Assembly (NCBI RefSeq): GCF_033115175.1
Contig: NC_084838.1
Coordinates: 40,341,468 to 40,405,467, forward strand
DNA from: Lepus europaeus
Lineage: Eukaryota > Chordata > Mammalia > Lagomorpha > Leporidae
Direction: 5' to 3'
DNA: 64,000 bases
Shown here: positions 10,961 to 44,128 of the stretch, one piece after another
How positions within the stretch are numbered: position 1 is the stretch's first letter
How the letters are laid out: the number at the start of each line of letters is the position of its first letter
Program-made: the position numbers and the translations under genes
The notes under the pieces: generated by a model
The model's database searches: none
Seen by the model: only the letters and a program-made list of their open reading frames with translations
Told to the model about the DNA's origin: nothing

Positions 10961-11299
10961 GGGGCCAGCACTACGATGTGGTAGGCTAAGCCTCTGCCTG
11001 AAGTGCCAGTATCCCATATGGGCGCCAGTTCGAGTCCTAGCTGCCCCTCTCCTGATCCAGCTCTCTGTTAATGGCCTGGGAGAGCAGTAGAAGATGGCCC
11101 AAGTGCTTCAGCATCTGCCACCCACATGGGAAACTCAAAAAAGCTCCTGGCTCCTGGATTCAGATCGACCAAGCTCAGGCTATTGCAGCCATTTGGGGAG
11201 TGAACCATGGATGGAAGACCTCTCACTCTGTCTCTACCTCTCTCTGTAACTCTGCCTTTCAAATAAATAAAAATACATCTTAAAAGAAAAAAAAAAAAA
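10961..11299 (+). mobile_element. Chimeric CSINE at outer end of left arm
   Basis: The head to about 11080 is the original target CSINE. From AGCAGTAGAAGATGGCCCAA onward it matches the 3' half of the right-arm CSINE (shared rare variants such as GGGAAACTCAAAAAAGC and CCATGGATGGAAGACC). The 3' flank carries the right-arm TSD (AAGAATGCTACC), but the 5' flank does not, so the halves have different origins. Confidence 0.88.
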
Positions 11300-11854
11300 G
11301 AAAGAATGCTACCATAGGGAACAGGAGGTAGTAGTGTGGTGTACATACTCCCACCCAGTGGCCTTGGTTCCTCCCTGTGGAGCCACAGGCAACACAAAGT
11401 CTAACCTCATTTCCTTTCCCAACCCAGTCCTTTAGGCGTGTTAGAACTGTAAAATCCTTTCTCTGAGACTGTTTATTCACTGGCTGAAAGCCTCAGTTCT
11501 TCCAACTTTTCTCACATGATAACAGTTTGACTCCTTTCTTTATTCCAGTCACTCCCTCTTGAATGATGATATTAACACGGAAAGCAGGACTTCAGATGGT
11601 GCTGACCAACACAGAATAGGGCACAGTGGAGTTATTACCTCCTAGGACCTGAACTCCATACTTTTACGAATGCAACCCAACAGCACAGTAGATTTTCTGG
11701 TGACTATTGTTACACAGCGTGCTTATATTAAGTTTGTTATGTTCTTCAAACATAGCCATCTCTGAAGGTCTATTCTAGCCTACCCAGTCTCAACCTAACC
11801 TAGATTACTGTTTAAATTCCTCTTTACTGAATTCAGCCAGCTACTCTTCTGTTT

Positions 11855-12122
11855 TAAAGTGTATTTATTTTATTTATTATGTATTTGAAAGGTAGAACAA
11901 CAGAGAGAGAGAGAGACAGAGACAGAGAGAGACAGAGATCTTCAATTTACTGGTTCATTTCCCAAATGCCTACAACAGCTGGGGCTGGGCCAGGTGGAAG
12001 CCAGAAACCTGGAACTCAATCCAGATCTCCCATATGGGTGGCAGGGACCCACGTACTTGAGCCACCATCTGCAACGTCTCAGGGTGCACATTAGCAGGAA
12101 GCAGAATCAGAAGCGGAGTGGA
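11855..12122 (-). mobile_element. Old CSINE, antisense (left-arm copy, part 1)
   Basis: Counterpart of right-arm 42896-43247. It is split by the CSINE at 12123-12459 and resumes at 12460-12548. Confidence 0.88.
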
Positions 12123-12459
12123 GGGGCCGGTGCTGTGGCACAGTGGGTTAATGCCCTGTCCTGAAGCACCGGTATCCCATATGGGCATCGGTTTGAGACC
12201 CGGCCCGGCTGCTCCACTCTGATCCAGCTCTCTGCTATGGCCTGAGAAAGCAGTAGAAGATGGCCCAAGTTCTTGGGCCCCTGAATCCGTATGGGAGACC
12301 CAGAAGAAGCTCCTGGCTCCTGGCTTCGGATCAGCACAGCACTGGCCATTGCGGCCAACTGGGGAGTGAACCAGTGGATGGAAGATCTCTCTTTCTCTCT
12401 CTGCCTTTCCTCTGTGTAACTCTGACTTACAAATAAATAAATAAATCTTAAAAAAAAAA
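12123..12459 (+). mobile_element. CSINE private to left arm
   Basis: GGGGCCGGTGCTGTGGCACA head to AAATCTTAAAAAAAAA tail. TSD AAGCGGAGTGGA (12111-12122) / AAGCAGAGTGGA (12458-12469). The right arm has the uninterrupted site, so this insertion is later than the duplication or was never transferred by conversion. Confidence 0.95.
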
Positions 12460-12548
12460 GCAGAGTGGAACTTGACCCCAGACACTTAGACATGGGATAC
12501 AGGCATCCCAAGTGGCAGGTTAACCAAATGCACCACCTCTCCCAGCCA
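12460..12548 (-). mobile_element. Old CSINE, antisense (left-arm copy, part 2)
   Basis: The head half of the element begun at 11855. It ends in GCACCACCTCTCCCAGCCAG. Confidence 0.85.
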
Positions 12549-13261
12549 GCTCCCTTTCTGAGAATATGAGTTACATTACCAGTTTCTAGTAAGCATGGAG
12601 CCACCATCTCACTAGCCCCAGTGGACCTTTATATATATTGGCCATCAGCCTAGATCAACCTGTGATTTCAGATTCTTGCCTTGATTTTATATTGCTAAGG
12701 CAAAGGACTACCCTATTTCATACAAATTCTGAACTCAATATAACAATAGGTACAGCTATTAAATATGATCATGATATCTCAACTGACAATAACAAGGATA
12801 TAAGATGAATATTATGGGTGGCACAACCCTACAGTAACCTGTACTGGTAACGTTCCATGGAGAAGTCTGAGAAACTTGAAAGTATCTGTTAGCTAGGGAT
12901 TTGAAAACCAATCTTCAAGGAAATGGTAAAGGGAAAACAACAGCATCAATTTAGCCTGGGGTTGGGGGAGTGTTTAGGCTGTATCTCTAGTAACTGCTGG
13001 TTTCAGAGCCTTTTCTCATAGCCTATTCCTTCTTGCTGCTTTGGTCAAGGGCTTATAGTTTCATTTTAAGCATGGCCAACTGCACCTATGGTATTCATGA
13101 GATCTATTCCTGAATCTGCCTCTTCTCTCTTATCTACTCAGCAGAATCAAGATTACTCTCTCTCACCTGCCTATTTCCAAATGACTATCAACTTATTATG
13201 CAAACAATGAATACTAAAGAGCAGAGTAGGAAAGATTCATTTTCTGGGTTCTTTTTTAAAT

Positions 13262-13560
13262 TAAAAAAATTATTTATTTACTTGAGAGGTAGAGTTACAG
13301 ACAGACAGAGGGAGAGACAGATAGAAACGTCTTCCATCCACTGGTTCACTCCCCAAATGGCTGCAACAGCCATAGCTGGGCCGATCCAAAACCAGGAGAC
13401 AGGAGCTTCTACCAGGTCTCCCACACGGGTGCAGTGGCCAAAGCACATGGGCCATCTTCCACTGCTTTCCCAGTTGGGGAGTGAACCAGTGAATGGAAGA
13501 CTTCTCTCTCCCTGCCTCTACCTCTGTGTAACTCTGCCTTTCAAATAAATAAATTTTTAA
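13262..13560. mobile_element. Fold-back CSINE at inner end of left arm
   Basis: 13262-13472 is antisense (tail to core, ending GCTTTCCCAG). 13473-13560 is then sense 3' tail (TTGGGGAGTGAACCAGTGAA to AAATAAATTTTTAAG). The antisense part matches right-arm 41651-41838; the sense tail belongs to the target CSINE whose head is at 10961. This is the inner junction of the inserted arm. Confidence 0.85.
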
Positions 13561-13704
13561 GAAAGCATATACAGGGAAAAATTAGAAAATATTTTAAATT
13601 GAATAGTAATGAAAATATGTGTATCAAAAACATAAGGGTGCTGGCAACAGTATGCTTAATGGAAATATATAACTTCAGATGTTGTTAGAAAAGAAGAAAA
13701 CTTG

Positions 13705-13928
13705 GTGGGGGAGCGACAACATTGTGGCAAAGAAGGAGCTGGGAACTTCATCCAGGTCTCCCTCATGGGTGGCAGAGACTCAGGTACTTAGGCCCTCTTC
13801 CATTGCTTTCCCAGGCACATTTGCATGGAGCTAGATCAGAAGTAGAGTAGCCAGGACTTGAACTGAAGCCCATGTGGGATGCCAGCATTACAGGCTGCTG
13901 CTTAACCCACTGTGCCACAGTGCTGGCC
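13705..13928 (-). mobile_element. CSINE, antisense, lacking its 3' end
   Basis: It begins within the core (GAAGGAGCTGGGAACTTC) and ends TGTGCCACAGTGCTGGCC. Confidence 0.8.
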
Positions 13929-14537
13929 TCATAAGTTAGTTATTGAAGCATGAATGAAATTGATGAAATCCAGGCTTATCTAGATAAGAAAATAACAATA
14001 GGCAATAGCAGGAATGAAAACTGAGATATCATTACAGATTCTACAGATACTGAAAAGAATAATAGGGGTATATTATCAACAATCTTATTTCAAATTATTT
14101 ATCAACTTGGAATGAATTTCTTGAAAACCACAATTTACCTTAACTGACACAGAAGAAATGGAAAATGTCCTATGCCTTCTAAATAAATTTAATTTATAAT
14201 TAAAAACCTTCCCACTAAGAGACTCCAGGGGCAAATAATTTCACTGATGGATTGTATCAGATATGTAAAGACTAAATAACACCAATTTTACAGTCTTCAG
14301 AAAACAGAGATTATAGAACAAGTCATTTTATTATGTCAGCATAAACCTGGTATCAAAATAAAAGCTATTACACATGAAGAAAATTATAGGCTGTTACCCC
14401 TCATGGAGACAAATGCAAAAAATCATTAAACAAAATATAAGATCTGTCCCAGAAATACATAAAAAGAATACTGTATAACCCCGAAGTGGAGTTTATCCCA
14501 AGAACACAAAGGTAGCTCAACATTAAAAAATCAAATT

Positions 14538-14866
14538 TTGAGGCTGGCTCTGTGGTTTAGTAAGTTAAGCCTCTGCCTGCTGTGCTGGCATCCCATAAGG
14601 GCTCTGGTTCATGTTCCAGCTGCTCCTCTTCCAATCCAGCTCTCTTCCTGGGAAAGCAGTGGAGGATGGCCAAATGCTTGGGCCCCTGCACCCAAGAGGG
14701 AGACCTGGAAGAAGCTCCTGGCTCCTGGCTACTTGCGTAGGATCAGCCCAGCTCTGGCCATTGCAGCCATTTGGGGAGTGAACCAGCAGATGGAAGACCT
14801 TTTTCTCTCTCTCTCCCTCTCTCTGTCTGTAACTTTGCCTTTCAAATAAATAAATAAATCTTTTTC
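14538..14866 (+). mobile_element. CSINE in L1 RT-like region
   Basis: GAGGCTGGCTCTGTGG head to AAATAAATAAATCTTT. TSD AAAAAATCAAATT on both sides (about 14525 and 14867). Confidence 0.92.
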
Positions 14867-15234
14867 AAAAAATCAAATTATTTCTTCACATTAACAGAAT
14901 AAAGGAAAAGTGATATGATGACATTTCAATAGATTTAGAAAAAAAAAGTGGCCAAGTTCAAAACGCCTCAAAAATATTGTTACAAGGGTCAAATGAGATG
15001 ATGTACTCGAAATGTTTTGTAAACTGAAGTACACTGTACAACTGGAAAGTATTTTTATTGTTATCCCTCTGCTGTGACATCCTGAGATCTACAGGCTTCT
15101 TTTTGATAGGGACTTCTTGAGACTTGGACAACACACTTTTCAATTATTCCTTCTATGACCTCAGAATAGGACTCACTTGCATTGCATGGCAGACCACGAT
15201 GGAATAATAAAATAGTGACTACCACAAAGTCTAT

Positions 15235-15435
15235 ATTGCCGCTGGTACTTGAGGGCTTACTGTGTGCTGGGATCTGAGTTAGCACTCTTCATGCATTGCT
15301 TATTTTATCAAAGTAATTCCACTTTATGGATAAAAGAATAAGGATTTGAGACTAGATACCTTGGCCAAGTGCTCACACATAGTTTGTAGCAGAACTAATA
15401 GTCTAACTAAGGGTTACTCTAGAACTCCAGTTTTT
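15235..15435 (-). mobile_element. MIR, antisense, interrupted
   Basis: GGGCTTACTGTGTGCTGGGA, a degraded central region (ACTTTATGGATAAAAG) and CTTGGCCAAG follow the antisense MIR order. It continues after the CSINE at 15440-15749 as far as about 15790. Confidence 0.6.
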
Positions 15436-15439
15436 GTTT

Positions 15440-15749
15440 TTTTTAATTTTATTTTATTTCAAAGGCAGAGTTACAAAGAGGGAGAGACACAGAGAGAGGT
15501 CTTCCATCCGTTGGTTCATTCCCCAAATGGCTAAAATGGGGAGCTAGAGCTGGGCCAATCCAAAGCCAGGAGCCAGGAGCTTCCTCTGGGTCTCCCACAT
15601 GGGTGCAGGAGCCCAAGGACTTGGGCAATCCTTTGCTGCTTTCCTAGGTGCATTAGCAGGGAGCTGGATGTGAAGTGGAGCAGCTTAGACTCGAACCAGT
15701 GCTCACATGGGATACCAACATCGCAGGCAGCAGCTTTACCTGTGGCCAT
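15440..15749 (-). mobile_element. CSINE, antisense, inserted in MIR
   Basis: TTTATTTCAAAGGCAGAGTT tail module to CTTTACCTGTGGCCATCCC head. TSD GARCTCCAGTTTTT (about 15423 and 15753). Confidence 0.88.
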
Positions 15750-16297
15750 CCCTGAGCTCCAGTTTTTAAACCCTACACTGCCTTGACTCCTGCAGCAGTA
15801 TCTGGGAAGGGTTCGCTAAAGTTGGCTCTGTCCTCTTGGGTTTCCAGGGAGGCATGGGGCTGGTGTTGTATTTTTTTTTTCACATTATGAGTACTGTGCT
15901 AACACTGCATTAATAGAAAAAGAAAATCTTTAATTTTACTTTATTGCTTTTTAAATTCTTGATGAGCATTCTAAATTATAAAAGTAATGCACATCCATGG
16001 TAAACATATTAAAACCATTACAATGAGCACAAGTCTGTATCCCCACAATTCCTTTGTCTACTGCTTAGACAAAGCCACTGTCCACAGATTCTATGTATTC
16101 TTCCAGAAATTGTATAGGTATATGCAGATATATACATATTCTTGAACTACACAATGGGTCATCTATTCCTGTCAACTGCTTTTTTACTTAACAGTTTGCC
16201 TTGGAGAACTTTCTATAACAATACATGAAAGATTTACTTCATTCTTTTTATTTTAGTTATTTTTTCAATACTATACTGTTTTGTAAATTTACTTTTT

Positions 16298-16590
16298 TAA
16301 AATTTATTTTATTTGAAAAGCAGAGTTAGAAGGAAAGACAGATATCTTTCATATGCTGGTTCATTCCCCAAAAGGCTGCAGTGGTTGGAGCTGGGCCAGG
16401 CCAAAACCAAGAGCCCCAGTTCTCCCACATGGGTGCTGGGGCCCAGGCACTTGGGCTTTCGACTGCTGCCTTCGCAGGCACACCAGCAGGGAGCTGGATC
16501 AGAAGTGGAGTAGCCAGGTCTCAAACCAGCATCCATATGGGATTGCTGGCAGGCAGAGGCTTAACCCACTTTGCCACAATGCCAGCCTCA
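16298..16590 (-). mobile_element. CSINE, antisense
   Basis: TTTATTTGAAAAGCAGAGTT to CACAATGCCAGCC. TSD TAAATTTACTTTT on both sides (about 16284 and 16593). Confidence 0.92.
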
Positions 16591-16930
16591 TATAAATTTA
16601 CTTTTTGACAAATAAAAATTATATATACTTATAATGTACAACACAATATTTTGAAATATGTATGCACTGTGGAGTGCTAAATTGAGCTAATTAACATATG
16701 CTTTACTCACATATTTATCATTTTTTGTGGTGAGAACATTTAAAATCTATTCTTAGCAATGTTCAAGAATTTAATACACTGTCATTAACTATAGTCACCA
16801 TGTTATACCATAGTCATTCTTTTTAAAATATACATAATAGCCCACTGAATTACTATAATATTTTATTTTATTTTTTTAACTAGGACTCTATTGATGACTG
16901 TTTAGTTTTCTTCATTTAAAAAATTGTATA

Positions 16931-17254
16931 GGGGCAGGCCTTGTGGTGCAGCAGGTTAAGTCATCACTTGGGACACCCACATCCCATATTGGAGTGCCCA
17001 GTCAGAATCCCAGCCACTCTGCGTCCAAACCAGGTTCATACTAATGCACCTGGGAAGGCAGCAGATGATGGCCCAACTATATAGGTCCATACCACCCTTG
17101 TGGGAGACCTGGATATAGTTCTCTGCATGAGGCAGAAGCCTGACCCACTCCTGACTGTTGTGGGCAATTGAGGAGTGAACTAGGTTAGAAAATCTCTCCT
17201 CCATCTCTCCCTTTTTTGTCACTCTACCTTTTAATAAATAAATAAATCCTTTAA
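16931..17254 (+). mobile_element. CSINE, older
   Basis: GGGGCAGGCCTTGTGGTGCA head to AATAAATAAATAAATCC tail. Confidence 0.85.
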
Positions 17255-17954
17255 ACAATATATTACAAATAACACTGCAATTTTGCACATACATCTTACG
17301 CAGATGTGAGTATTTCTACAGGAAAAATTCAAGAAAGAGGCGTTGCTACATTGAGGGGTGTATGCACTTTAAATCTTTGTATATTGTCAGACTGCCCTAC
17401 AAAAAAGTTGCATCAGTTGGCACTCCCATCACAATGTATGACAGTGCCTGTTACCCTGAATATCACTGTGTGAAGATTTTGAGATGTTTCCTAATCGCAA
17501 ACACTTATCGAGTGCCTTCTGTGTGCTTTAGGCACTGCTCTGGGCTCATGGATTTGAAATGCATTCAGTGTAGCCAGAGGAAGACATGTTGGTGAATTGC
17601 TGGTCCTTTGGGAGTTAGAGCTTCTCCTCTTTTAGAAATGGAGACTGCAAGCTGGTGAGGTATTGAGTTTCAATTTAGCTTAATGGAAACCTGTTAGTGA
17701 GTTTAAAATAAGGACCAAGACTGGAATGGTCAATGGAATTCCCCGGGCCCCAGAAAGGAGTATGAAAAGTTTATGGGTTTCATGCTTGGATGAGCCCCTC
17801 TTTCTAGGAACAGTCATGCTTCTGCATTGAACTCTTCAGTGGAGATGCCAGCTGCTGAAGTCTGGTCATCCCTAGAGCAGGTACTTCTTGGAGGCAAAGG
17901 GCCACACAGGTGTTGTATGGCTGAGGGTGTGGTAGAGTTTATAAAAGGGAATGT

Positions 17955-18100
17955 AATGCTGCCAGCCATCATTTACTGGGCACAAATTCTGGCCAGACAC
18001 GAAACTGTGCTTTGTGTGCACCAACTCATGTAATCCTCATAGCAAGACAATGATGGTCTGAGAGGGTGTCTTTATGATGCCCATTTTAAAGACAAAAATA
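17955..18100 (-). mobile_element. MIR, antisense
   Basis: CATTTACTGGGCACAAATTC, CAACTCATGTAATCCTCATA and TGCCCATTTTAAAGACAAA follow the MIR antisense consensus in order. Confidence 0.65.
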
Positions 18101-18101
18101 C

Positions 18102-18420
18102 TCAGCCTGTGTTGTGGCACAGCAGGTTAAATCACTGCTTGCAACGCTGGTATCCTGTACTGCCGTGCTGATTCGAGTCCTGGCTGCTCTGCTTCTGATC
18201 CAGCTCCCTGCTAATGTACCTGGGAAAGCAGTAGAAGATAGCTCAAGTCCTTGGACCCTTGCTACCCATGTGGGAAATCTGGAAGGAGTGCCTGTCTACT
18301 GGCTTCAGGTGTTGTGGTCATTTGGGGAGTGAACCAGCAGATGGAAGACTCTCTCCCTCTCTCTCTCTCTGTCTCCTTCTCTCTCTGCCTTTCAAATAAA
18401 TGTCTTTAAAAAAAAAAAAG
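18102..18420 (+). mobile_element. CSINE, older
   Basis: GCCTGTGTTGTGGCACAGCA head to AAATAAATGTCTTT(A)n. It is followed directly by a short antisense piece. Confidence 0.88.
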
Positions 18421-18500
18421 ATTCATTTACTTTATTTGAAAGGCAGAGTTACAGAGAGGCAAGCAGCGGCTTTACCCACTATACCACAGCTCCAGCCCCT
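18421..18500 (-). mobile_element. CSINE, antisense, large internal deletion
   Basis: The tail module (TTTATTTGAAAGGCAGAGTT) is joined directly to the head (ACTATACCACAGCTCCAGCC); the core is missing. Confidence 0.75.
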
Positions 18501-18516
18501 CTTTCTGTGCCTTTTT

Positions 18517-18858
18517 GATTTTTTTTTGAGAGGCAGAGTGGACAGTGAGAGAGGGAGACAGAGAGAAAGGTCTTGCTTTGCCGTTGGTTCACCCTCCAAT
18601 GGCCGCCGCGGTTGGTGCGCTACGGCCGGTGCACCGCGCTGATCCGAAGGCAGGAGCCAGGTGCTTCTCCTGGTCTCCCATGGGGTGCAGGACCCAAGCA
18701 CTTGGGCCATCCTCCACTGCACTCCCGGGCCACAGCAGAGAGCTGGCCTGGAAGAGGGGCAACCGGGACAGAATCCGGCGCCCCGATCGGGACTAGAACC
18801 CGGTGTGCCGGCACCGCAAGGCGGAGGATTAGCCTAGTGAGCCGCGGCGCTGGCCTTG
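18517..18858 (-). mobile_element. CSINE, young, antisense
   Basis: TTTTTTTTGAGAGGCAGAGT to GCGGCGCTGGCC. Perfect TSD CTGTGCCTTTTT at 18505-18516 and 18859-18870. Confidence 0.95.
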
Positions 18859-19285
18859 CTGTGCCTTTTTAAAGTGTGTGCATTGTATCTGCGTGTATTT
18901 GATCTGAGGTTTACCATATATATCCACAAAGTGTTATACCACTTCAGCTTCACAATGTAATAACTTTTTGTTTTGTTTTTGTTTGTTTCTTTTTTTCTTA
19001 CAATGTAATAACCTTATAGCATGGTAATTTCATTTGTCACCACGATCTCTTCCTTTGTCTTTTTGTTGTCACATATTTTATTTCTACATTCATTATAAGC
19101 TCCACTTGACAATGATTTTTTTTTTTTTTGCTTTAAACTGTTGCATGTCTTTTAAGACAATAGAAAAAAAACGAGTCTTTAATATTTACCCGCACCTTTT
19201 CCATTACTAATTACTTTTTGGTCCTTCCCATAGACCAAATTTCCATCAGGTATAGTTTTCTTTGAAACTAAAAAACTTCCTTTAG

Positions 19286-20168: not shown

Positions 20169-20328
20169 GGTCAACCATAATTCAAACCACTGTTCCCCTG
20201 TATGCAAGGTGTCATTTTTTTCTGGCTAGTTCCAAGATTTTATTTCTACCTTTGGATTCCTGCAGTTTGATTATGAAGGAGTAAGATGTGGTTTTATTTC
20301 CATCTATCCTGTTTGAGGTTCAATGAGG

Positions 20329-31202: not shown

Positions 31203-32261
31203 GAAATTTTGAAATCCATATGGTTTTTATTTTTTGGTAATACACATTTTCCATGAACTTTCTGAAGACCCCACACAAGTCGAGTCATAAATAGCATGAG
31301 CAAAGATTTGCTCTCCAAACCTCACTATGCCTAGGCCCAAGTGAAGTAAATTTAAAATAGGTAAATAAAGTCCTGCTTTACAGAGGTCGAAGTTGCACAT
31401 TAGCCCCAGGCTAGTCATTCATAAATGGCTTGGGAAAACTGGTTCCTGAGGACCAAATGGTTTACCACAGGGTTTCTCAAGAAGCTGGGGCTACCTGCCC
31501 TCCCACAGTGATGCTGGGGAAGAAGGCAGACCTCGGCTCTGGGACTCCTGGGCTTCCTATGAGCAGGGCTGATTGAGTCCCCAGAGTGGACCAGGGCTCT
31601 CAGGGAAGAGACACATGAGGCTCTTGCAACAGCTGGGGGCCTGTGTTTGCACTGTGCTGTGTGTGAAGAAGAGGCCAGGGCCTCCAAAAAGGGTCTCTCT
31701 CCTCTCCTCTGCCTGACATCTGTCCTCACAGCTCTCCCAGCACAGAAAAGCCAAACCCAGCTCCAGCACAGAATCCGCTCCGTGTCTCATGTACAGCTCC
31801 CTTGATTCCCTTTGTGGATTCCCAAACGGCAAGGCCCAAACCGCGAGGCCCACATAGCCCAGCGCTGGGCACACAGCAAAGGGCTGGACAAATAAGTCCC
31901 CTGAAACAATGTGAGGGCAAGGAGGAATAGGCTGGGGGGACTCGGGGTGGGGGCTAAGGAGGATGGTCAGGACAGGTTTGTGGAGTGAGGAGGTGGGAAT
32001 AGTGAAAGACAAGTGAGAGGGAGTGAGAAACAAAGGACTGAGGCAATATGAGAGAGGAGGCCGGAATCTGTGGGAGAGGGCAAGACAGAGTCAGTGGTCA
32101 GTGAGAGCGTGGGTAGTTGGGGGAAGGGGGCACAGAGGAAAGAAAGTTAGGAGTCAACAGGGCAAAGAAGATCGGGGATGAGTAGAAAAGGGAAGGCCAG
32201 TGGTCACTGGCGGCAAAGGTCACGGGGTCATCCCGAGAGGGCAAGTCAGGGTGTGGGTTAC
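31203..32261. other. DNAI1 intron 1, 5' end, CSINE-free
   Basis: Unique sequence next to exon 1 with no visible repeat. From about 31.9 to 32.2 kb it is purine-rich. A plausible place for intronic regulatory elements. Confidence 0.5.
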
Positions 32262-32288
32262 CTGCCTACGAGGCTGTTTCTGGGGCAT
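32262..32288 (-). CDS. DNAI1: DNAI1 coding exon 1 (N-terminus of axonemal dynein intermediate chain 1)
   Basis: DNAI1 is a WD-repeat intermediate chain of the ciliary outer dynein arm. Read on the minus strand, the first in-frame ATG gives MPQKQPRRQ and ends at a GT donor (CAG|GTAACC, GT at 32261-32260). Seven further in-frame codons upstream (32289-32309) read VLPASAK. Together, VLPASAKMPQKQPRRQ aligns with the 16 human exon 1 residues as I remember them (MIPASAKAPHKQPHKQ). The codon at the human Met1 position is GTG here, so I start at the Met of codon 8, which has A at -3. The same frame upstream has no ATG before a TGA at 32409-32411. The intron is phase 0. The 5' UTR lies between here and the X-box at 32.50 kb. 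Identity is secure from exons 2-4; the exact start is inferred. Confidence 0.85.
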
Positions 32289-32500
32289 CTTGGCAGAAGC
32301 TGGAAGCACCTCAGCCCCTGGGGAGCCTACGAAACACTCCCTCTCCTGAGGACAAGAAGTTTTTCCGTCTCCTCGACCACACACAGGAAATCCGGACTCT
32401 CTTGCACTTCAATTCCCAGGCGCAGGGGTTCTCTAGGGACAGCCGTCGTCGTTTGGGTCCTGGTGCCCTTGTAGGACAGAATCGGCTCCTCCCTGACGCG

Positions 32501-32513
32501 GTTACCCAGCAAC
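32501..32513. promoter_or_regulatory. RFX X-box (GTTACCCAGCAAC)
   Basis: The 13-mer matches the X-box consensus GTNRCC-N(0-3)-RGYAAC at every fixed position with a 1-bp spacer. RFX factors, often with FOXJ1, drive motile-cilium genes through such sites. It lies about 213 bp upstream of the DNAI1 start codon, as expected for an outer-arm dynein gene. Function is inferred from motif and position. Confidence 0.75.
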
Positions 32514-32607
32514 CGACGGGCGGCCTAGGCGCAGGCGCCGCTGGCGCCCCCTCTCGGCACGGGGAGGAGGCGGAGCCGGGCGCGCGAGGACACGCCTGCT
32601 CCGCTAA

Positions 32608-32618
32608 GCCCCGCCCCT
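32608..32618. promoter_or_regulatory. GC box (Sp1/KLF-type)
   Basis: GCCCCGCCCCT inside the CpG island, between the X-box and the FAM219A side of the promoter. Confidence 0.5.
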
Positions 32619-32731
32619 CAGGAATAATATGCCGGACGGCTGCGCGCGTTCAGAACTGCATGTGGGAGGGGCTGGGGCGCTCAGACACCTCCTCCTCATG
32701 AATAATGCAGCATCCGGGCGGTGTCCCGGAC

Positions 32732-32740
32732 CCGGAAGTG
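32732..32740. promoter_or_regulatory. ETS/GABP-type site
   Basis: CCGGAAGTG, a canonical ETS core typical of TATA-less bidirectional promoters. It lies about 310 bp upstream of the FAM219A start. Confidence 0.5.
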
Positions 32741-33048
32741 GAGTTGCCGAGTCACCGCAGTGGCTGAGTTGCTGACAGGAGGCGGCGGCGGAGGAGGAGG
32801 CGAGGCAAGACCTGCGGCTCGGCCTGGCCTCAGCCGCGATAGAACTAGGCAAGCCCACCTAGTCACGCCGGCCTCGCAACCTCTCGCCCTCCCCGCCCCC
32901 TCTCCATCTGCCTGGTCGCCTGCCCTCCCGACTCCTCCGGGGCGGCCTAATCTGCACTACCCGCCGGGCTCCTGGGGCCGCCGCCCCGTGCGGTCCCGTC
33001 GGCGTCCCTCGCCGCGCCCGGCCCCCGGCCCGCTCTCCCGCCGGCACC

Positions 33049-33108
33049 ATGATGGAGGAGATCGACCGGTTCCAGGTGCCCACCGCGCACTCGGAGATGC
33101 AGCCGCTG
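33049..33108 (+). CDS. FAM219A: FAM219A coding exon 1
   Basis: Twenty codons, MMEEIDRFQVPTAHSEMQPL, are followed directly by a GTGAGG donor (33109). This matches the N-terminus of FAM219A (formerly C9orf25), a small, largely disordered vertebrate protein of unknown function. The location, head-to-head with DNAI1, agrees with the human 9p13.3 gene order. The start has a good context (CACCATGATGG), and either of the two tandem Met codons could be used. The intron is phase 0. I could not find exon 2 (expected to start with Asp-Pro) in the remaining 31 kb, consistent with a very long first intron. Confidence 0.9.
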
Positions 33109-35539
33109 GTGAGGGGGCGGGCGGCGGGCAGGCCAGGGCCGGGAGGGGGCGCCGCCTGAGGGGGGAAGGAGGAAATCAGGCCGCGGGGATTGTGCGGAGG
33201 GGGCGTCATCGGATGGGGCAGAGAACCCTGAAAACGCCCTGCCAGGGGAGGGGAACTTGCAGGACAAGAAAACCGTGGGAGAATAAGCCGAGCGGGAGCA
33301 AAGGGACCCATAAGGGTGGAGGGAGCCGTGGCGGAGGCAGAACGCCGTCGGATGAATCGGAGGGGGCACAATGGTGCCCGCCGCTAGCGGAGGCCCAACG
33401 GCGGGCATGGCAAGGGTACTGTCAGGAAGCACTGCCGGCCGCAAGCCCAGGGATTGGGATGAGGTGCGAAGGCCTTTAGCCCTAGAGGCCTGGATGCTCA
33501 GGGCGGAGGAGGAGGCCCGTGGAGCCGTCAGGCTAAGAGGGACCGGAATAGGCTTTTAGAGGAAGGGCCTGCCTGCCGGTCCGCCGCATAAGGATAAGAG
33601 CGCGGAGCCGAGGCCAGGGACCGGTAGGTGCAGGGGGTCGTTGCAGGACCTGGGAATTCTGTTCTCCGAAGAGGAGCCCAGGCAGCCCATGATTGGGGGT
33701 TTCGGGACCGGGAAGGAGAGTGAGCGGCGGCGAGATGAAGAGTCAGGGGCGCAGATGAGAGTGCTCTAGAACCTACGGGAGAGGAGGTGGGGCCGCGCTG
33801 GAGCCGCCTGTGCCCACCGATTCGGAAGAACCCCAATCATCCTAGGCCTACGTGCTTGCCGGAGTCTGCTGGGCGCGGATCCTGCCTCCTGTCCGCGGTC
33901 CCGGAGGCAGGGAGGAATGATGTCATCGCTGCCGGCGCGGAGGGGATGGAAGGGGGAGGGCGATGCCGGTGCACGGAGGCCTGGCCTAAGGGAGCCCATA
34001 CCTGCAGGCCCCGCTGCCCGGGGACTACTTGACTGGCTTGTTTGCCCGGCGATTGGGTGGGAGATGTGGAGGCCTTGTCATGTGATATAGAGATAGGAGA
34101 AAGAAAGGAGCCCCAGGCTGTTAGATTTTCCCCCTTTGGAACCCAAGCCAGAGCTGGAAGGAGGCAGGGCAGGCCAGAAACCTGAAGGTGTGGATGTGCT
34201 TTTCTCTGAGCTCTGCTAGAGCTGAGTGGAGCATTCCAAGTACTGAAGCTCTGGAGCTCCCTCAGCCTCCTCCCTCCCTGTTAGGCCGGATTGTCAGGAA
34301 CAGCTTCTACCTTGGCCTGTAGCCCTCTGCCTGACATATGTGCTTTGTGGCTTCCCGGGCAAATAACCTGTGCATTACAATAGCCAACATGGGTCTTGTC
34401 AGGGACTTATGACAGTCTCTACATCATGATTTGGGGATGGTGGGGAGAATCATTAGTGATCACCTAGCTAGATGTAAAGTGGCTTTTCTCTGCTTTTGTG
34501 ACTACTTAGCTCTAGAAGCTAAAACACAGGCATTTTATGGGAGTGTACTTTATTAAAATAAGGAAAGAGAGCTACTGTATGATCTCTTCCTAGCTTGATG
34601 CCATTGTTGGAGTACTTAGGAGCCAGAAAATCCTAGAGAGAAGTCTGCCCATGAACTTGAAGAATATCCTTGCTGATTTCTCTATCCAGCCAACCTGGCT
34701 TGCAAACTAGATTGCCCTTTCAGTTCTAAGCATCTCATCAAGACCTCAAAGGGAGGGTGAATGAAGGAAGTTCAAGTGAGTCAGGAGAAGAAAGCAATGA
34801 GTTGATTTTTGTCTCCCATCTGGGATTCCCAAAAAGGGAGGCAATAACTGACCGAGGAAGGGGAAGAAGGGATAGGGTCACCAGGATCTCTCATTTGTCC
34901 TTGGTGCCTCTGTCATTGCCTGAAGTTTTTAATAATGATTTGGCTGGTAGAGGACTTCTGAGCTGCTTCTAGTCTGTGTAGCCCTGAAATAGAAGTGCTT
35001 GTGGCAAGGAGGCACTTATCAGAATAGCTGTGGCTGCCATACATCCTTTTCCCAAGGGCTAAAGGAGCCCTTGTCAGCAAGAGAATACTTTGTTGAAGTT
35101 GAGGGAAAGTTTTAGGAAAATCACAATATAGTCATCCCCCATTTGATGGACATGGATATTGTCCTGCTTCTTGACCTCTGTCCCTGAGTTGTAGTCTAGA
35201 GACACCCCAAAACTCTTTAAATGCCTTGCATATTGTTAAGATTGGTAGAGCCTTCATTTGGGGGCAATAGGGGTAAAGAAGGGATACCATTGAGGTAAAG
35301 GACAGAAGAGCAAGATGGCTTCTTAGGGCTATTTGAGTAGACCATCAAAACTAGGGTCTCAGGCTCAAACTCACTTGTGACCTATTTTTTGTCATTATTT
35401 ATTGAGACCTCTAGGGCATCTCTCTTCTTCCCTGGATTATTTTCTCATTTATAAAATGAAGATAAACTATGTATTAAAGATTTAAGCAATAACTCCCCAC
35501 TTTCCCTTCCAAAGAATATCAGCAGAGACCTGACACTGT
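33109..35539 (+). other. FAM219A intron 1, proximal, repeat-free
   Basis: GC-rich for about 1 kb, then ordinary unique sequence. No CSINE, LINE or second exon found. The long open frames at 32.7-33.6 kb come from high GC content. Confidence 0.6.
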
Positions 35540-35690: not shown

Positions 35691-37439
35691 TTGCTCACTC
35701 CCTGAGAGTAGAGTAAGAGCTCTATGGAAATGCAAATATGGCTATCAGCATTATTGCCTCCTTTCAGGACCAAGACCTGTCACTTGGGCCTCATCATCAA
35801 AGAGAAGAATCCAGAGGCTAGTCTGTGCTTGGAAAGATGAGCTCCAAGAGGAGAGTGTCTTTTTATTATTATTATCATTTACTTGAAGGAAAACTTGAGC
35901 TTAAAAAAGAAGCCTGGAGGAGTGGCAGGAGCTGAGAGAGAAGGAGCAGCCAGCAGAAATGGGTGTTTCCAAGGTGCTAATTTAAGCAATGCTTCTCAGC
36001 TAGTGGGAAGAAGAGGAAGATTCCTGCCTTATTGTTGCTGCTGCTGTTGCCACAGCTGCATGGAGCCTCCTGTCTGGAGTGGGAGTTTGCCTGAGGAGAG
36101 TAGCTTCCCTCCTTTCCCCAGCACACCAATTATTTAATTGGCCTGGCTGCATCTCAGCAGCTGAACCAGACTTGAGCCTAGCCCTGAGAACTCCCCAGGG
36201 TCTCTTCCTGTCTCCTTACCAAAGGAAAGAGAGCGCCTCTTCAAGACCTATTCCTGGGGCTGCAATCCTGAAGGTTTCTGAGCACAGATTCTCCCAAGGA
36301 AACTTCAAATGTATGTCAAATCTGTGTGTCATCCTTACTCTTCACTGATGCAGGGAAGCTCCCAGCTGCCCAAGGCTCTCCAGTGAGCAGTTGGGTTGAG
36401 TTTGGGCCATTGTTTGTATGAGTAACAAGGACAGGTTCTCTGCCCTTCTTGTCTGTCTGCTTGGTTGGTGCAGACACACAGTCTGTCTTGTCTTCAGCTG
36501 CAATTGGAGAGCACGATTTGTTGCAAGAAAAACAAATGGAGCTTTTAAGCACTTAATTGTGTCATGAAACACCCTGCCTCCTGTACTCTTAGAAGCCAAA
36601 AAGACTTTAAAGATGGCATATGGCAACAGATGGGGTCTCAGCACACTTGAGAGAAATGCTGGTCTGGCCTTACCGAACACAGATTATCTGTTAACTCATT
36701 TGTTTATTTAGTTCATGATCATTTGCTATGCATCTACTCACTTCCAGGTACTGTTAAGGATACAGAGACAAAAGAGATCTCCTCAGTAGGTAGCCAGGAG
36801 AAGGATAGGCTCAAACAACTACTGGATGGTTTTTAGGTTGGTCAGAAGCATGTAGATATCAGTGGAATGTATTCCTGAGAAAGAGCGACACCTCCCTTGG
36901 GAGAAGGTGCGCGTGCCAAGGTTCTGCTCCTTTGACTACATGAGCTTGGAAACGAGTTTCAGACTCCCGTCTTCTGACACTGAAAGAAGGGGATGATCAC
37001 TGAGTGGGCCACAGTGGCTTCTGAAAGTGGTGGAGAACGATAATAATGATGCCAAATAGCCACTGTAGAAATTGACCTATGTGTATTCTGTGCGCTGGGC
37101 CCCTTAAGTTGCTCTTTGTAGTCAAATGATTTTTTCAGTTTAGTGTAGATTCTCCCAGTGAGTCCATGTGGCTTGTGACCCCGTAGTGTTTCTCAGGCTC
37201 CTGGGGAGAGGATACCATTCTCTCTTCCTATATTGCAAACCGAGGAGCAGGTTTGCCCAGGCCTTCAGCCCTTTGCTGCTCACCCCGCCTCATCCAGCAA
37301 ACACCACATAAGAAACTACTCTGTGATAGACGCTGTGCTGCTCTCAGTAATACAGAACCTTACTCCAGGCCTATGCAACTCTAGAAGGGACTGTGGCACT
37401 ACGGGTAAGAGAAGTACGAACCAGGTCTAGTGTGGCCAG
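35691..37439 (+). other. FAM219A intron 1, repeat-poor
   Basis: One faint antisense L2 at about 36690-36790 (TTATTTAGTTCATGATCATT). Otherwise unassigned. Confidence 0.5.
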
Positions 37440-37455
37440 AAGAAAACAAGAAGGT

Positions 37456-37810
37456 GGCCGGCGCCGCAGCTCAATAGGCTAATCCTCCACCCACAGCGCC
37501 GGCACACCAGGTTTAGCCCCGGTCAGCGCGCCGGATTCTGTCCCGGTTGCCCCTCTTCCAGGCCAGCTCTCTGCTGTGGCCCGGGAGTGCAGTAGAGGAT
37601 GGCCTAAGTCCTTGGGCCCTGCACCCGCATGGGAGACCAGGAGAAGCACCTGGCTCCCGGCTTTGGATCAGCAAGGTGCACCAGCCGCAGCACACTGGCC
37701 GCAGCAGCCATTGGAGGGTGAACCAACGGCAAAGGAAGACCTTTCTCTGTCTCTCTCTCTCTCTCTCACTGTCAAAAAAAAAAAAAAAAGAAAAAAAGAA
37801 AAAAAGAAAA
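37456..37810 (+). mobile_element. CSINE, young, with internal duplication
   Basis: GGCCGGCGCCGCAGCTCAAT head and a long A-rich tail. TSD AGAAAACAAGAAGGTG (about 37440 and 37811). The GCACCAGCCGCAGCA / CACTGGCCGCAGCAG module is tandemly doubled at about 37676-37710. Confidence 0.93.
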
Positions 37811-37814
37811 AGAA

Positions 37815-38290
37815 AACAAGAAGGTGTCTGATCAAGTGGTCAGGGGAAGCTTCACAGAAGAGACATTGCTGAACTGGCTCTTGCAAGAAGACTGGAAACT
37901 TAGACTGTCAAGATGAGGCAAGGGAGATAATTCCAGGCAAAGGACATGGAGGAAGAAACAAAAGGATATGGTTGGGATGGGTGAAAGGTTGTAATTAAGG
38001 AAATAGCATGATCAAATTTGAGTTTTGTTGTCACTTCAGTGGCAAATGTGGGATTGGAGAAGGTAAGATTAGAGATTGGAAAATTAATACAGAAGTGGGT
38101 ACAGCATTCCAGTCAAGAGATAATGAAGGCACACGCTAAAGCAGAAGTAGACAGAGAGGAACAGCCAGATATGGATACTAATAATATGTAACAGGCAGGA
38201 TGTGACACAACACCTGTTTGATCAAGAAATGGGAAGTGAAGGATGGTTTCTGATACAGATACCTGGATGGAATAAGGGAACATCATAAGA
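37815..38290 (-). mobile_element. L2-like fragment
   Basis: AGGGGAAGCTTCACAGAAGA, then ATTCCAGGCAAAGGACATGG and GCATTCCAGTCAAGAGATAA resemble antisense L2 in order. Strongly diverged. Confidence 0.45.
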
Positions 38291-40877
38291 CATTTAGAAA
38301 TCCACATATCTCTTACCCTCAAAGACTGCTTATAACAGAGAAGACTGTTTTCCTTTGCTCTATTGCTGAAGCTACATTCTTGGGGTATTGGGGAACCCAG
38401 GAGTCCTAGAAACCAAAAGTCAGAATGGCATTATCCCTACAGCCTCAAAAGGGCTGCTGAGAAATGTGCCACTTGCCAGTGAATACATTCTACCTGCTAC
38501 CTGCTTTGATGAATGTAAAGAATTTGTGGCAGCAAGGAGCCATAGTGGGTTTTTATTGTTGTTTCCTGCAGCACTTGGATGAAGGAAAAATAAAATCCTT
38601 TGTTGTCTGAGTGTTTCATGCTGTGGTTTATGACCTGGTCTTTTACCATCATTCTGGTCAAACTATGGTTTTATTTCTGATTAACTGACTGGGCTAAGTC
38701 CTCTCACTGATTTCTTCTAGAATGGATGTGTATGTTACTGCATCATCTGCCAAGAGTTAGAATAGAAAAAGACACGCACCTCCCTTTTCTGACACCAACC
38801 TTAAAAGCTGCACTGAGGGAAAAGTCTGGGCACTGCTTCCTTCCAGACAAGGTGTTCCAAAGGAGCAGGCTTCTAGGGTGAAAATCACTCAGAAATGGCT
38901 TGGCTTCTCAGAGGCCCCAAGTATGGCCTCTGCAGGTGCTTCACGGTAGCTGGGGTTCAGGCTGAGTCATTCCCAGGCTTCAGCTGTCTGCTGCCCTAGA
39001 CTGCCTGTAGTCCAGAGTGAACAAAAATGAAAAACAGCCTTCTTCACTTAAACCTGATTAGCCTCAGGGACCCTCTTCCCTCCCTGAAAGGGCAGGCAGA
39101 GACTTGTATCTGGAAAAGGAACATGGGAAACAGCTTCTCGGGCTTAGCTGCTTTGTGTCTTCCAGCAGATCTTGGGAGAACAGGTGCAGGGAACCCTGGA
39201 GGAGGTGGGACAAGGAAAATCAGGCTACTAGTACAGATACCCAGAGGTACTGGTTGAAGGAAATAAGAGGTGTGGCTGAGCAGGATCTCGTCATTGTTTC
39301 ATAAGGAGACTGGTGGGAATCTGGTTTTCTGGACAGCAGAAAGGAAGGAAGGAAGGAGGCAGAGCTGAGAGCAGCTCTGGATCTGGCTGTGCTCTGGAGT
39401 TTGGAAATTGGCACATGATCCCAAGGCGTCATTGAAGGGCAGCTGAGTGAACTCCTGGGCTGCAGGGAGGGACTCTGAAGTGGAAGGAGGCCTAGAGGGT
39501 CTGGCTTGGGGGAGGGGTGGACACTGGGCTCTAGGAGTTTCTTCCTAGGCTTGACATTCTTAAGAACCAATTCAAGGGCTTGTATTTGTTGTTATTCAGA
39601 GATATCAAATTCAGGGTCGGATGGTTGTGATAATTGAGGGTCCATTTCACATTTCTGTGATAAAAGTAACTGCATGAGTGTGTGCATAAATTAAAAGGGA
39701 ATAACAGCCCTGAGGGTGTTCTCTGATGACTATTCTAGCCCTGGGAAGTATAACTATGAACAGAGGCCACACACAAGCATAAACAAGTCCAGCTACTTTT
39801 TTTTTTTTTTCTTCACTTAGTGTTTTACTGCTTGGCTGATTATGCCTGTTTTGGCCACCAGATTCTTGGCTGTCTTAAACAGAGTCCTCCCCATATATCT
39901 AGAACAATACCTGAAGGGGCACTTTCACTAAGATTTATTAACTGCACCCAAACTGTGGAGTGAGAGCATTATATATTTTATAATAAACCTAAACACAATT
40001 AAGTAAAGCTATAAATGATTTATAGTTCCCATATTAATTTCCAGTTTTATCCTTGTAAAGGAGTTGGTGAAGCCATTAGCCAAGCATGGTTTAGGTCAGA
40101 GTTTCTTACAGTATATTGCTGGGAATATTGATCCTTTGGGATAATTCTTGGGGAAAAAAGGGCTCCTTAGACAAATTCCTTTGGGAAACACTATATACTC
40201 CATTCCATCATGATATCCAACAGCATTTTAAAGGCTCTGAAAAATCCTGCTGTAAAGAAACCTTTTCAATTATGTTGAACTCAGTATTTCCCAAGCTTAT
40301 GTAACTATAGAAATTTTTTTCATGCTATATACATCTACTGACATTTTATAAACCAATGTTTCATGGAATAGTCTTTGGGAAACTCTGGCTTAGAAATTAG
40401 TTTCTGTTCTGATCCAATCTAAATGTATATTCTTCCCAGTTCTTTTGAACCTCTTTTATAATCCACATCATTTTGTCCTATTCTAACCTCTAATGAGATG
40501 TTGCTGACTTGTTTCAGAGTATGAACTTGTCATGAGGAGGAAGTTCTTAATGAACTTTGGCCAGGTGCAGAAGCAAATATTAAGTGCCATATTTTTCTCA
40601 TGGTATTTATAAAGTTTTACTTCCCTTGTGTCCCTCTACCAAATGCTGGCTTGATGTTTAACTTCTTTTTTATTTGGCAGCCTTATGGAGGTATAATTCA
40701 CATACTCTATACTTTAATTATTTAGTATCTTACCTTCAATCCTGTCTTGGTTATCCCGTACCTTAGTTCTGTTTTTCTTTTTCACCTGTCCTTTTGGGTT
40801 CTGCCTAGGAGTAGAGAGAAGATAAAAGATTATGGTCCAGAGATTTTGTCAGGAAGATCTAATTGCAACTGAAATTT
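38291..40877 (+). other. FAM219A intron 1, repeat-poor
   Basis: No CSINE in about 2.6 kb and no exon recognised. One T14 run near 39797. Confidence 0.5.
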
Positions 40878-41140
40878 AAAAATTTTTTAAATTATTTATT
40901 TGAAAGGCAGAGAGACAGATCCTCCATCTGTTGGCTCATTCCCCAAATGCCTGCAGTAGCTAGGGCCTAGAGCCTGGAACTCCATCTGGGTGGCAGGGAC
41001 CCAAGTACCTACTGCCTCCCAAGGTACATTAGTAGGAAGCTAAGTTAGAAACAGAGTAACCAGGATTTGAACCAGATACTCCAATATGAGATGTAGGCAG
41101 TCCAAGTGGACACTTACTTGCTGTGCCAAAAGCCTGCCCC
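40878..41140 (-). mobile_element. CSINE, old, antisense
   Basis: TTTATTTGAAAGGCAGAGAG to GTGCCAAAAGCCTGCCCC. Confidence 0.82.
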
Positions 41141-41188
41141 TGGGCTGGAGACTTATGATATAGCTTCTTAAGAAATGAATGAGAGAAG

Positions 41189-41478
41189 GGGCCAGCGCTG
41201 TGGTGCAGCGGGTTAAAGCCCTGGCCTGAGGCACTGGCATCCTATGTGGGTGCCGATTCTAGTCCTGGCTGCTCCTCTTCCAATCCAGCTCTATGCTGTG
41301 GCCTGGGATAGCAGTAGAGGATGGCCTAGGTCTTTGGGCCCCTACACTCACATGGGAGACCCGGAGGAAGCTCCTGGCTCCTGGCTTCGGAAGGGTGCAG
41401 CGGCCATCTGGGGAGTGAACCGGCAGATGGAAGATCTCTCTCTCTGTAACTCTGTCTTTCAAATAAATAAAATAAATT
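41189..41478 (+). mobile_element. CSINE, full length, followed by (TA)n
   Basis: GGGGCCAGCGCTGTGGTGCA head to AAATAAATAAAATAAATT. TSD AAGAAATGAATGAGAG (about 41171 and 41522). A (TA)n of about 42 bp lies between the tail and the TSD. Confidence 0.95.
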
Positions 41479-41520
41479 ATATATATGTATATATATATAT
41501 ATATATACACATATATATAA
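41479..41520. repeat. (TA)n microsatellite at CSINE tail
   Basis: TA repeats with a few G/C interruptions, inside the TSD of the preceding CSINE. It therefore arose from the element's tail. Confidence 0.95.
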
Positions 41521-41536
41521 AAGAAATGAATGAGAG

Positions 41537-41838
41537 GAGCCACGGCTGTGGCACAATAGGCTAAGCTTCTACCTGCGGCACTGGCATCCCATATGGGCAG
41601 CAGTTCTGTCCTGGCTGCTCCTCTTCTGAGCCAGCTCTTTACTAATGGCCTGGGAAAGCAGTAGAAGATGGCCCAAGTGCTTGGGCCCCTGCACTCGTGT
41701 GGGAGACCCAGAAGAAGCTCCTGGTTTTGGATCAGCCCAGCTCCGGACGTTGAGGCTGGAAGATCTTTCTCTGTCTCTCCCTCTCTCTGTCTGTAACTCT
41801 ACCTCTCAAGTAAATAAATAAATTTTTTAAAAAAATTT
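41537..41838 (+). mobile_element. CSINE at inner end of right arm (complete)
   Basis: GAGCCACGGCTGTGGCACAA head to AAATAAATAAATTTTTTAAA. From GGGAAAGCAGTAG (about 41655) to its tail it matches the antisense part of the left fold-back CSINE; its head half has no left counterpart. It lacks about 30 bases near the tail that are present in the left copy. Confidence 0.92.
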
Positions 41839-42051
41839 AGAAATTAGGGAGAAAATTGATCTTTCATAACCTGGTCTTTAGTATTCATTTTTGCATAATT
41901 AATTAATATTAAGTTAATAGTCATTTGGAAATAGGCAGGTGAGAGAGGGTAACCTTGATTCTGCTGAGTAGGTGAGAGAGAAGAGGCAGATTCAGGAAGA
42001 GATCTCATGAACATCTTGAGGGAAGTTGGCCATGCTTAAGATGAAACTATA

Positions 42052-42380
42052 AGGGGGTTGGCGCTGTGGCACAGTAGGTTAGTCCTTTGCTTGTGGTGCT
42101 GGTATCCCATAAGGGCATCAGTTCTTGTCCCAGTTGCTCCTCTTCCAATCCAACTCTCTGCTATGGCCTGGGAAAGTAGTAGAAGATGGCCCAAGCACAT
42201 GGGCCCCTGAACCCATGTGGGAGACCCGGAGGAATCTCCTGGCTCCTGGCTTCGAATTGGCTCAGCTCTGGCCATTGCAGCCATCTGGGGAGTGAATCAG
42301 TGGATGGAAGACCTTTCTCTTTGTCTCTCCTTCTCACCGTCTATAGCACTACCTCTCAAATAAATAAAACAAAATAAATG
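42052..42380 (+). mobile_element. CSINE private to right arm
   Basis: GGGTTGGCGCTGTGGCACAG head to AAATAAATAAAACAAAATAA. TSD AACTATAAG / AATTATAAG. The left arm (about 13050-13070) has the empty site. Confidence 0.93.
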
Positions 42381-42895
42381 GAATTATAAGCCCTTGACCA
42401 AACAGCAAGAAGGAGTAGGCTATGAGAAAAGGCTCTGAAACCAGCAGTTACTAGAGATACAGCCTAAACACTCCCCCAACCCCAGGCTAAATTGATGCTG
42501 TTGTTTTCCCTTTACCATTTCCTTGAAGACTGGTTTTCAAATCCCTAGCAGTGCTAATAGATACTTTCAAGTTTCTCAGACTTCTCCATGGAATGTCACC
42601 AGTACAGATTACTGTAGGGTTGTGCCACCCATAATATTCATCTTATATCCTTGTTATTGTCAGTTGAGATATCATGATCATATTTAATAGCTGTACCTAT
42701 TGTTATATTGAGTTCAGAATTTGTATGAAATAGGGTAGTCCTTTGCCTTAGCAATATAAAATCAAGGCAAGAATCTGAAATCACAGGTTGATCTAGGCTG
42801 ATGGCCAATATATATAAAGGTCCACTGGGGCTAGTGAGATGGTGGCTCCATGCTTACTAGAAACTGGTAATGTAACTCATATTCTCAGAAAGGGA

Positions 42896-43247
42896 GCTGG
42901 CTGGGAGAGGTGGTGCATTTGGTTAACCTGCCACTTGGGATGCCTGTATCCCATGTCTAAGTGCCTGGGGTCAAGTTCCACTCTGCTTCTGATTCTGTTT
43001 CCTGCTAATGTGCACCCTGAGACGTTGCAGATGGTGGCTCAAGTACGTGGGTCCCTGCCACCCATATGGGAGATCTGGATTGAGTTCCAGGTTTCTGGCT
43101 TCGACCTGGCCCAGCCCCAGCTGTTGTAGGCATTTGGGAAATGAACCAGTAAATTGAAGATCTCTGTCTCTCTCTGTCTCTGTCTCTCTCTCTCTCTGTT
43201 GTTCTACCTTTCAAATACATAATAAATAAATACACTTTAAAACAGAA
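42896..43247 (+). mobile_element. Old CSINE (right-arm copy)
   Basis: CTGGCTGGGAGAGGTGGTGC head to AATAAATAAATACACTTT. Uninterrupted counterpart of the element split at 11855-12548. Confidence 0.88.
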
Positions 43248-43792
43248 GAGTAGCTGGCTGAATTCATTAAAGAGGAATTTAAACAGTAATCTAGGTTAGG
43301 TTGAGACTGGGTAGGCTAGAATAGACCTTCAGAGATGGCTATGTTTGAAGAACATACCAAACTTAATATAAGCACGCTGTATAACAATAGTCACCAGAAA
43401 ATCTACTGTGCTGTTGGGTTGCATTCGTAAAAGTATGGAGTTCAGGTCCTAGGAGGTAATAACTCCACTGTGCCCTATTCTGTGTTGGTCAGCACCATCT
43501 GAAGTCCTGCTTTCCGTGTTAATATCATCATTCAAGAGGGAGTGACTGGAATAAAGAAAGGAGTCAAACTGTTATCATGTGAGAAAAGTTGGAAGAACTG
43601 AGGCTTTCAGCCAGTGAATAAACAGTCTCAGAGAAAGGATTTTACAGTTCTAACACGCCTAAAGGACTGGGTTGGGAAAGGAAATGAGGTTAGACTTTGT
43701 GTTGCCTGTGGCTCCACAGGGAGGAACCAAGGCCACTGGGTGGGAGTATGTACACCACACTACTACCTCCTGTTTCCTATGGTAGCATTCTT

Positions 43793-44128
43793 TTTTTTTT
43801 TTTTTCTTTTAAGATGTATTTTTATTTATTTGAAGGACAGAGTTACAGAGAGAGGTAGAGACAGAGTGAGAGGTCTTCCATCCATGGTTCACTCCCCAAA
43901 TGGCTGCAATAGCCAGAGCTTGGTCGATCTGAAGCCAGGAGCTTTTTTGAGTTTCCCACGCGGGTGGCAGGAGCTTAAGTACTTGGGCCATCTTCTACTG
44001 CTTTCCCAGGCACATTAGCAGGGAGCTGTATTGGAAGTTGGAGCAGTGAAGACGCAAACCTGCTCCCATTTTGGATGGCAGCACTGCCAGCTGGGGCTTT
44101 ATCCCACTGCACCACAATGCCAGCCCCA
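43793..44128 (-). mobile_element. CSINE at outer end of right arm (complete)
   Basis: Poly(T), TTTATTTGAAGGACAGAGTT to CACAATGCCAGCCCC. TSD GGTAGCATTCTT (43781-43792) / GGTAGCATGCTT (about 44130-44141). Its 3' half is shared with the left arm and its 5' half is not. Confidence 0.95.

Follow-up and report, generated by a model that had tools for sequence, protein, structure and literature searches.

We analysed a window of 64,000 nucleotides of the hare Lepus europaeus (RefSeq assembly GCF_033115175.1, contig NC_084838.1, positions 40,341,468 to 40,405,467 of the forward strand; all positions below are counted from the first base of the window), in which the genes DNAI1 and FAM219A share a promoter and which contains two inverted copies, each about 2.4 kb long and spaced by 28 kb, of a single segment. 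Arm A, the putative copy, is located in intron 1 of DNAI1 at 11096..13473 on the plus strand, and arm B, the putative source, in intron 1 of FAM219A at 41650..43996 on the minus strand; both spans include one interspersed repeat, apparently a later insertion, of a family that we take to be CSINE. These limits come from self-BLAST and a base-by-base alignment, and that of arm A on the left is approximate (11040-11136), since CSINE faces CSINE there. The inverted pair accounted for the two top-scoring self-matches of all 64,000 bases, 10988-12122 against 44099-42977 (94.7% identity) and 12458-13066 against 42988-42376 (97.6%), and continued through an outer part, 13052-13473 against 42053-41650, with 78% identity when gaps are counted. 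A preliminary description of this DNA had given 11080-13472 and 41651-44010 as reverse complements of each other, close to the limits found here.

The pair is a segmental duplication and not two members of one repeat family, as had been proposed, because the unique intron between the CSINEs has been duplicated along with them and occurs twice in the assembly. From 11096 on, the arms differ at 73 of 1982 aligned sites, corresponding to an identity of 96.3% with gaps and arm-specific CSINEs excluded; segmental duplications are defined as being at least 1 kb long and at least 90% identical, so that the arms belong to this class and not to the high-copy repeats. CSINEs occupy 950 of the 2380 bases of 11095-13474, and a mere pair of dispersed CSINEs is ruled out by non-CSINE stretches of 566, 501 and 195 bp, all of them duplicated and each present at two places in the assembly. 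Three unique probes (12550-13050, 13068-13262 and 11295-11860), searched against the 2.93-Gb assembly by a method that skips very common words, each gave two matches, which were the two arms; the preliminary description had stated that its proposal would fall if the first of these intervals proved to be a high-copy dispersed repeat, which it is not. In the 264 kb around the site (CSINEs masked, dust on; 2,691 N), no second pair, whether inverted or direct, reached a length of 500 bp and an identity of 95%.

The genes were located with human protein sequences. On the minus strand, the coding part of DNAI1 exon 1 is at 32262..32309, in phase 0 at its GT donor (protein match and splice signal), exon 2, which starts in phase 0, is at 2336..2368 (protein match, order and splice signal), and exons 3 and 4 are at 712-611 and 422-342 (protein match), with the later exons outside the window. 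On the plus strand, the coding part of FAM219A exon 1, comprising 20 codons and in phase 0 at its GT donor, was placed by protein match at 33049..33108, and exon 2, also by protein match, about 20.8 kb past the window, where masked N begin after 8 codons. Taken alone, the matches of DNAI1 exon 1, DNAI1 exon 2 and FAM219A exon 2 are weak (E 0.9, 2.2 and 5.9), but these short exons are supported by their order, by their splice signals and by later exons that match strongly. Arm A is thus positioned between exons 1 and 2 of DNAI1 and arm B between exons 1 and 2 of FAM219A, and the mapping agrees with the earlier claim that the arms, about 28 kb apart with one per first intron, enclose both first exons and the shared promoter. 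About 0.7 kb separates the two coding starts, which fall in a G+C-rich region (0.657 over 32001-34000). Both first introns are of phase 0, DNAI1 exon 1 ending with CAG and FAM219A exon 1 with CTG before GT, and the second exons of both genes open with a whole codon after AG. The arm has the same sense in the pre-mRNAs of both genes, and RNA pairing between the two pre-mRNAs, considered from the orientations of genes and arms, is ruled out for that reason. The sequence of DNAI1 exon 1 is VLPASAKMPQKQPRRQ, in which the codon at the position of human Met1 is GTG; the open stretch upstream contains no in-frame ATG, and the next in-frame ATG is codon 8. Given this GTG and the lack of an upstream in-frame ATG, translation of DNAI1 may start at codon 8.

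A model of the CSINE family, built on 12 copies from the window, gave 66 matches covering 19,551 of the 64,000 bases. Each arm carries one old CSINE of its own. The one specific to arm A (12123..12458, plus strand) is absent from B and is flanked by a 12-bp target-site duplication with 1 mismatch, and the one specific to arm B (42054..42378, plus strand), which is situated at the edge of the most similar part of the arms, is absent from A and has a 13-bp target-site duplication with 2 mismatches; an empty site is found opposite each in the other arm. Among the 40 matches scored for each, out of 5786 candidates for the A-specific copy and 8100 for the B-specific copy, the best non-self relative was 87% and 86% identical, respectively. 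Compared with a consensus built on its 24 nearest relatives, the A-specific copy differs at 24 of 288 non-CpG sites. Because each arm has its own old CSINE and the outer parts of the arms have diverged by 13%, the duplication is probably real and old, and hardly likely to be a duplicate made in assembly. An artefact of this kind could be suspected in that the analysis rests on an assembly and not on reads, but a false duplication would not give rise to different old insertions and to diverged outer parts, and the window contains no N; we therefore regard an artefact as extremely unlikely, and the worry about it voiced in the preliminary description as largely answered. Outside the arms, an ARAGORN call of a tRNA-Phe gene at 44871-44954 (plus strand) sits in the 5' part of a CSINE at 44865-45190 and was not accepted as a gene. 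The only match in an Rfam scan of the window was a partial 7SK sequence at 5876-5981 on the minus strand (RF00100, 46.8 bits, model positions 2-107 of 331), which is probably a truncated pseudogene.

We found that the identity of the arms is mosaic. In a core, corresponding to 11136..13051 (plus strand) in arm A and, by alignment, to 42391..43949 (minus strand) in arm B, 16 of 1553 sites differ (1.0%), whereas in the outer part, 13052-13473, the count is 51 of 389 (13%; Fisher 8e-24), with arm-specific CSINEs and gaps left out of both counts; the unique piece of the outer part differs at 32 of its 214 sites. A fit with two change points placed the best steps at 11127 and 13065. The longest identical runs measure 393 and 355 bp, and none of 10,000 permutations over 11040-13473 reached them. 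An abrupt step from the core to an older paralogous flank is present on the right side (1.0% versus 13%); on the left side, the core adjoins a CSINE that is not orthologous. Within the core itself the differences are only weakly clustered (p 0.043 for the longest run and 0.037 for six differences in 80 bp). At 12838-12911 the core has a small cluster consisting of five substitutions and a 5-bp gap, which is possibly an unconverted island. The possibility that a third copy had supplied the diverged outer part was examined with the probe 13068-13262, which matched only the two arms in the assembly. A local mutation hot spot in the outer part was likewise rejected, the CSINE there falling within the divergence range of its group. 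The preliminary description mentioned neither this change in identity nor the CSINE peculiar to each arm, nor the fact that the boundary CSINEs are cut.

The data are, in our judgement, well explained by an old non-allelic inverted duplication, the middle of which has been kept alike by gene conversion, and we hold this to be the likely history of the arms. The CSINEs in the core are 11-23% diverged from the consensus of their old group, and the two arms share 55 of these changes and have only 5 unshared, as opposed to 11 shared and 12 unshared in the CSINE of the outer part (Fisher 4e-5), suggesting that the core was homogenised after the duplication and that 13066..13473 of arm A (plus strand), about 13% diverged from 42053-41650 of arm B, is a portion that escaped. 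Alternatively, the arms might stem from a single recent duplication, in which the 13% divergence of the outer part reflects a mutation burst during error-prone copying and each arm-specific CSINE has been lost from the other arm. Such an event would account for the identity of the core without a second step, and break-induced copying is error-prone; however, two clean losses of old CSINEs at their target-site duplications would be required in addition to a burst at one end only, and the divergence of the outer CSINE from its consensus is ordinary for its group (12.0% in B against a group mean of 11.8%; by a second consensus, 14.2% in A and 9.9% in B against a group range of 7.1-17.5%). We consider this alternative unlikely. 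Still less can be said for an old duplication in which purifying selection, acting on an intronic element that the two sites share, has preserved the core, even though the core is found in intron 1 of each gene with the same orientation relative to transcription. The CSINE parts of the core (2.0% and 0.5% different) and its unique parts (0.7% and 1.2%) are about equally alike, so that selection is not needed to explain their likeness; moreover, the distance of the core CSINEs from their consensus indicates that they evolved freely before being homogenised, and the Rfam scan gave no match at the gathering score within the arms. Selection of this kind is therefore very unlikely.

The CSINEs at the edges of the arms, nearly complete in B but cut in A, bear on the direction and manner of the copying. 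At the left edge, 10961..11095 (plus strand) holds the 5' part of a CSINE that apparently belonged to site A from the start and continues in register into the CSINE of arm B, so that the boundary CSINE of A is chimeric; its counterpart in B, at 43802..44128 (minus strand), is near full length with matching target-site duplications on both sides (p 0.008 in a first test and 0.003 in a second), of which A has only the one at the 3' end. The second test, designed once the results of the first were in, was stricter, the position being held fixed close to where the CSINE starts. Over the first 108 CSINE sites compared, 1 of 29 changes is common to A and B, indicating that their 5' parts are two insertions. 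The pairwise distance is 0.367 over 10961-11039, as against a mean of 0.290 for random CSINE pairs, and 0.167 over 11040-11135, as against 0.181; over the rest of the left-edge CSINE it is 0.034, as against 0.221, as would be seen for one insertion. Judged by these values, the left junction lies between about 11040 and 11136. At the right edge of A, the inner part of B's CSINE, which ends at 13473, stands head-on against the 3' end of a CSINE in the opposite orientation (13474..13556, plus strand; model positions 249-334), which its order and orientation, with weak target-site support, suggest to be the rest of the split native CSINE. In arm B, the CSINE of the corresponding edge (41539..41834, plus strand) is near full length, and its target-site duplication is not significant. 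The duplication has, accordingly, one homologous junction, on the left and in register within CSINEs, and one non-homologous junction, on the right and head-on between opposite CSINEs. The reverse direction, with arm A as source and arm B as copy, would be compatible with the core differences, which carry no direction without an outgroup, but it is at odds with the near full-length boundary CSINEs of B and their cut state in A, and with the presence of both left target-site duplications in B only; we consider it quite unlikely.

We infer from these features that a break may have occurred inside a CSINE of DNAI1 intron 1 (site A), and that the broken end may have invaded a CSINE of opposite orientation some 33 kb distant, in intron 1 of FAM219A (site B). 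The repair synthesis that followed would have copied about 2.4 kb of B and halted inside the next CSINE of B, and the copied end would have been linked by end joining to the remainder of A's broken CSINE. Afterwards, a separate CSINE would have inserted into each arm, and in recent times some 1.6 kb would have been homogenised between the arms by at least one gene conversion, with a right limit coinciding with the B-specific CSINE, at which pairing would break down. The best model for the pattern is a one-sided invasion guided by CSINE homology and followed by copying and end joining.

Several observations weigh against this history. The A-specific CSINE is inside the core, so that at least two conversion tracts, or a repair that kept the insert, are needed. 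Both the direction of copying and the conversion rest on this one assembly. Over 11040-11135 the arms differ as much as CSINE pairs taken at random, and hence no old copied zone is demonstrated to the left of the core. The reading of the right edge as a split CSINE is weak, resting on order, orientation and a weak target-site match, scored at 9/10 (p 0.15 in the first test, 0.047 in the stricter one); the right-hand target-site duplication of B did not reach significance (p 0.57 and 0.14), and for the B-specific CSINE the p values were 0.15 in the first test and 0.035 in the second. The right junction, 13473/13474, which is old, has no clear microhomology by eye, whereas microhomology or added bases were reported for all joins sampled in PMC5104497. 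Finally, relative to older consensuses the A-specific CSINE has diverged by 11-13% and the B-specific CSINE by 14.5-17%, as compared with only about 7% per branch in the outer part; this excess of age may call for an earlier conversion there, or may reflect a poor consensus.

Mammalian substitution rates are 2-4 per billion sites per year. Applied to the divergence per branch, they suggest some 17-35 million years for the outer part (about 7%) and some 1-3 million years for the core (0.5%), figures that serve as a rough guide only. PMC11379240 dates Leporidae to 25.4 and Lepus to 4.5 million years in the scheme with all calibrations. The albumin exons of this genome differ from rabbit albumin (PDB 4f5v) at 16 of 256 residues, with residues at the exon joins excluded, which points to a leporid probably distinct from Oryctolagus, such as a hare or cottontail.

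If crossing over instead of conversion took place between the arms, a segment of about 28-33 kb is predicted to invert, exchanging the first exons of DNAI1 and FAM219A with both reading frames kept, since both first introns are of phase 0 and the arm has the same transcriptional sense in each gene. Inverted repeats are known inversion hot spots, and identical inverted tracts of several hundred bp, the two runs mentioned above, are present here; this assembly shows the normal orientation, and no flipped one was seen in it. We put forward, tentatively, the possibility that the arms are a naturally recurring flip site in leporids, at which the promoter and both first exons become inverted with frames kept, such that the two orientations might coexist within populations, or one species might differ from another in the orientation it carries. 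The locus is probably autosomal. With a frame-compatible layout around the shared promoter of a cilia gene, fusion transcripts would be predicted in the flipped state, and the locus may serve as a compact inversion substrate with a readable history, namely a CSINE-primed copy, later insertions and a later conversion. A literature search on DNAI1 with FAM219A, judged by titles, yielded nothing on this repeat.

Parts of this history and of the predicted inversion resemble known systems. In long-tract gene conversion with non-canonical termination, several kb are copied from a donor and the second end is joined without homology, as proposed here (PMC5104497); that system is a reporter in mouse cells with the sister chromatid as donor, whereas the hare case is deduced from one old junction without clear microhomology. 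At FLNA/EMD (HsInv0389), inverted repeats flank two genes and the inversion has recurred across mammals (PMC3961182), but whole genes are inverted without an exon swap and the locus is X-linked, unlike the case predicted for the hare. The int1h-1 and int1h-2 repeats of F8, involved in haemophilia A, are near-identical inverted copies, one of them in the first intron, with recurrent crossing over (PMC7507428); their size is printed as "1041 kb" in PMC11509435 and is taken here as 1041 bp. The second F8 repeat is outside the gene, 126-140 kb away, whereas both hare arms occupy first introns, flank a shared promoter and are separated by 28 kb; in addition, the F8 inversion is recurrent, while the hare locus is known from a single orientation of one assembly.

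CTRB1 and CTRB2 are relatives of each other, as are AQP12A and AQP12B, and the inversions HsInv0030 and HsInv0241 thus swap exons between related genes, whereas DNAI1 and FAM219A are unrelated. In both HsInv0030 (CTRB1/CTRB2; PMC6748972) and HsInv0241 (AQP12A/AQP12B; PMC3961182), inversion through inverted repeats exchanges first exons, as predicted here. An engineered inversion at Peg3/Usp29 differs in having been made in mice, in spanning 4 kb and in lacking natural inverted repeats, and it lowered the expression of one gene about 10-fold; it is nevertheless similar to the predicted hare inversion in that a bidirectional promoter was inverted together with both first exons, resulting in two fusion transcripts at changed levels (PMC5515438).

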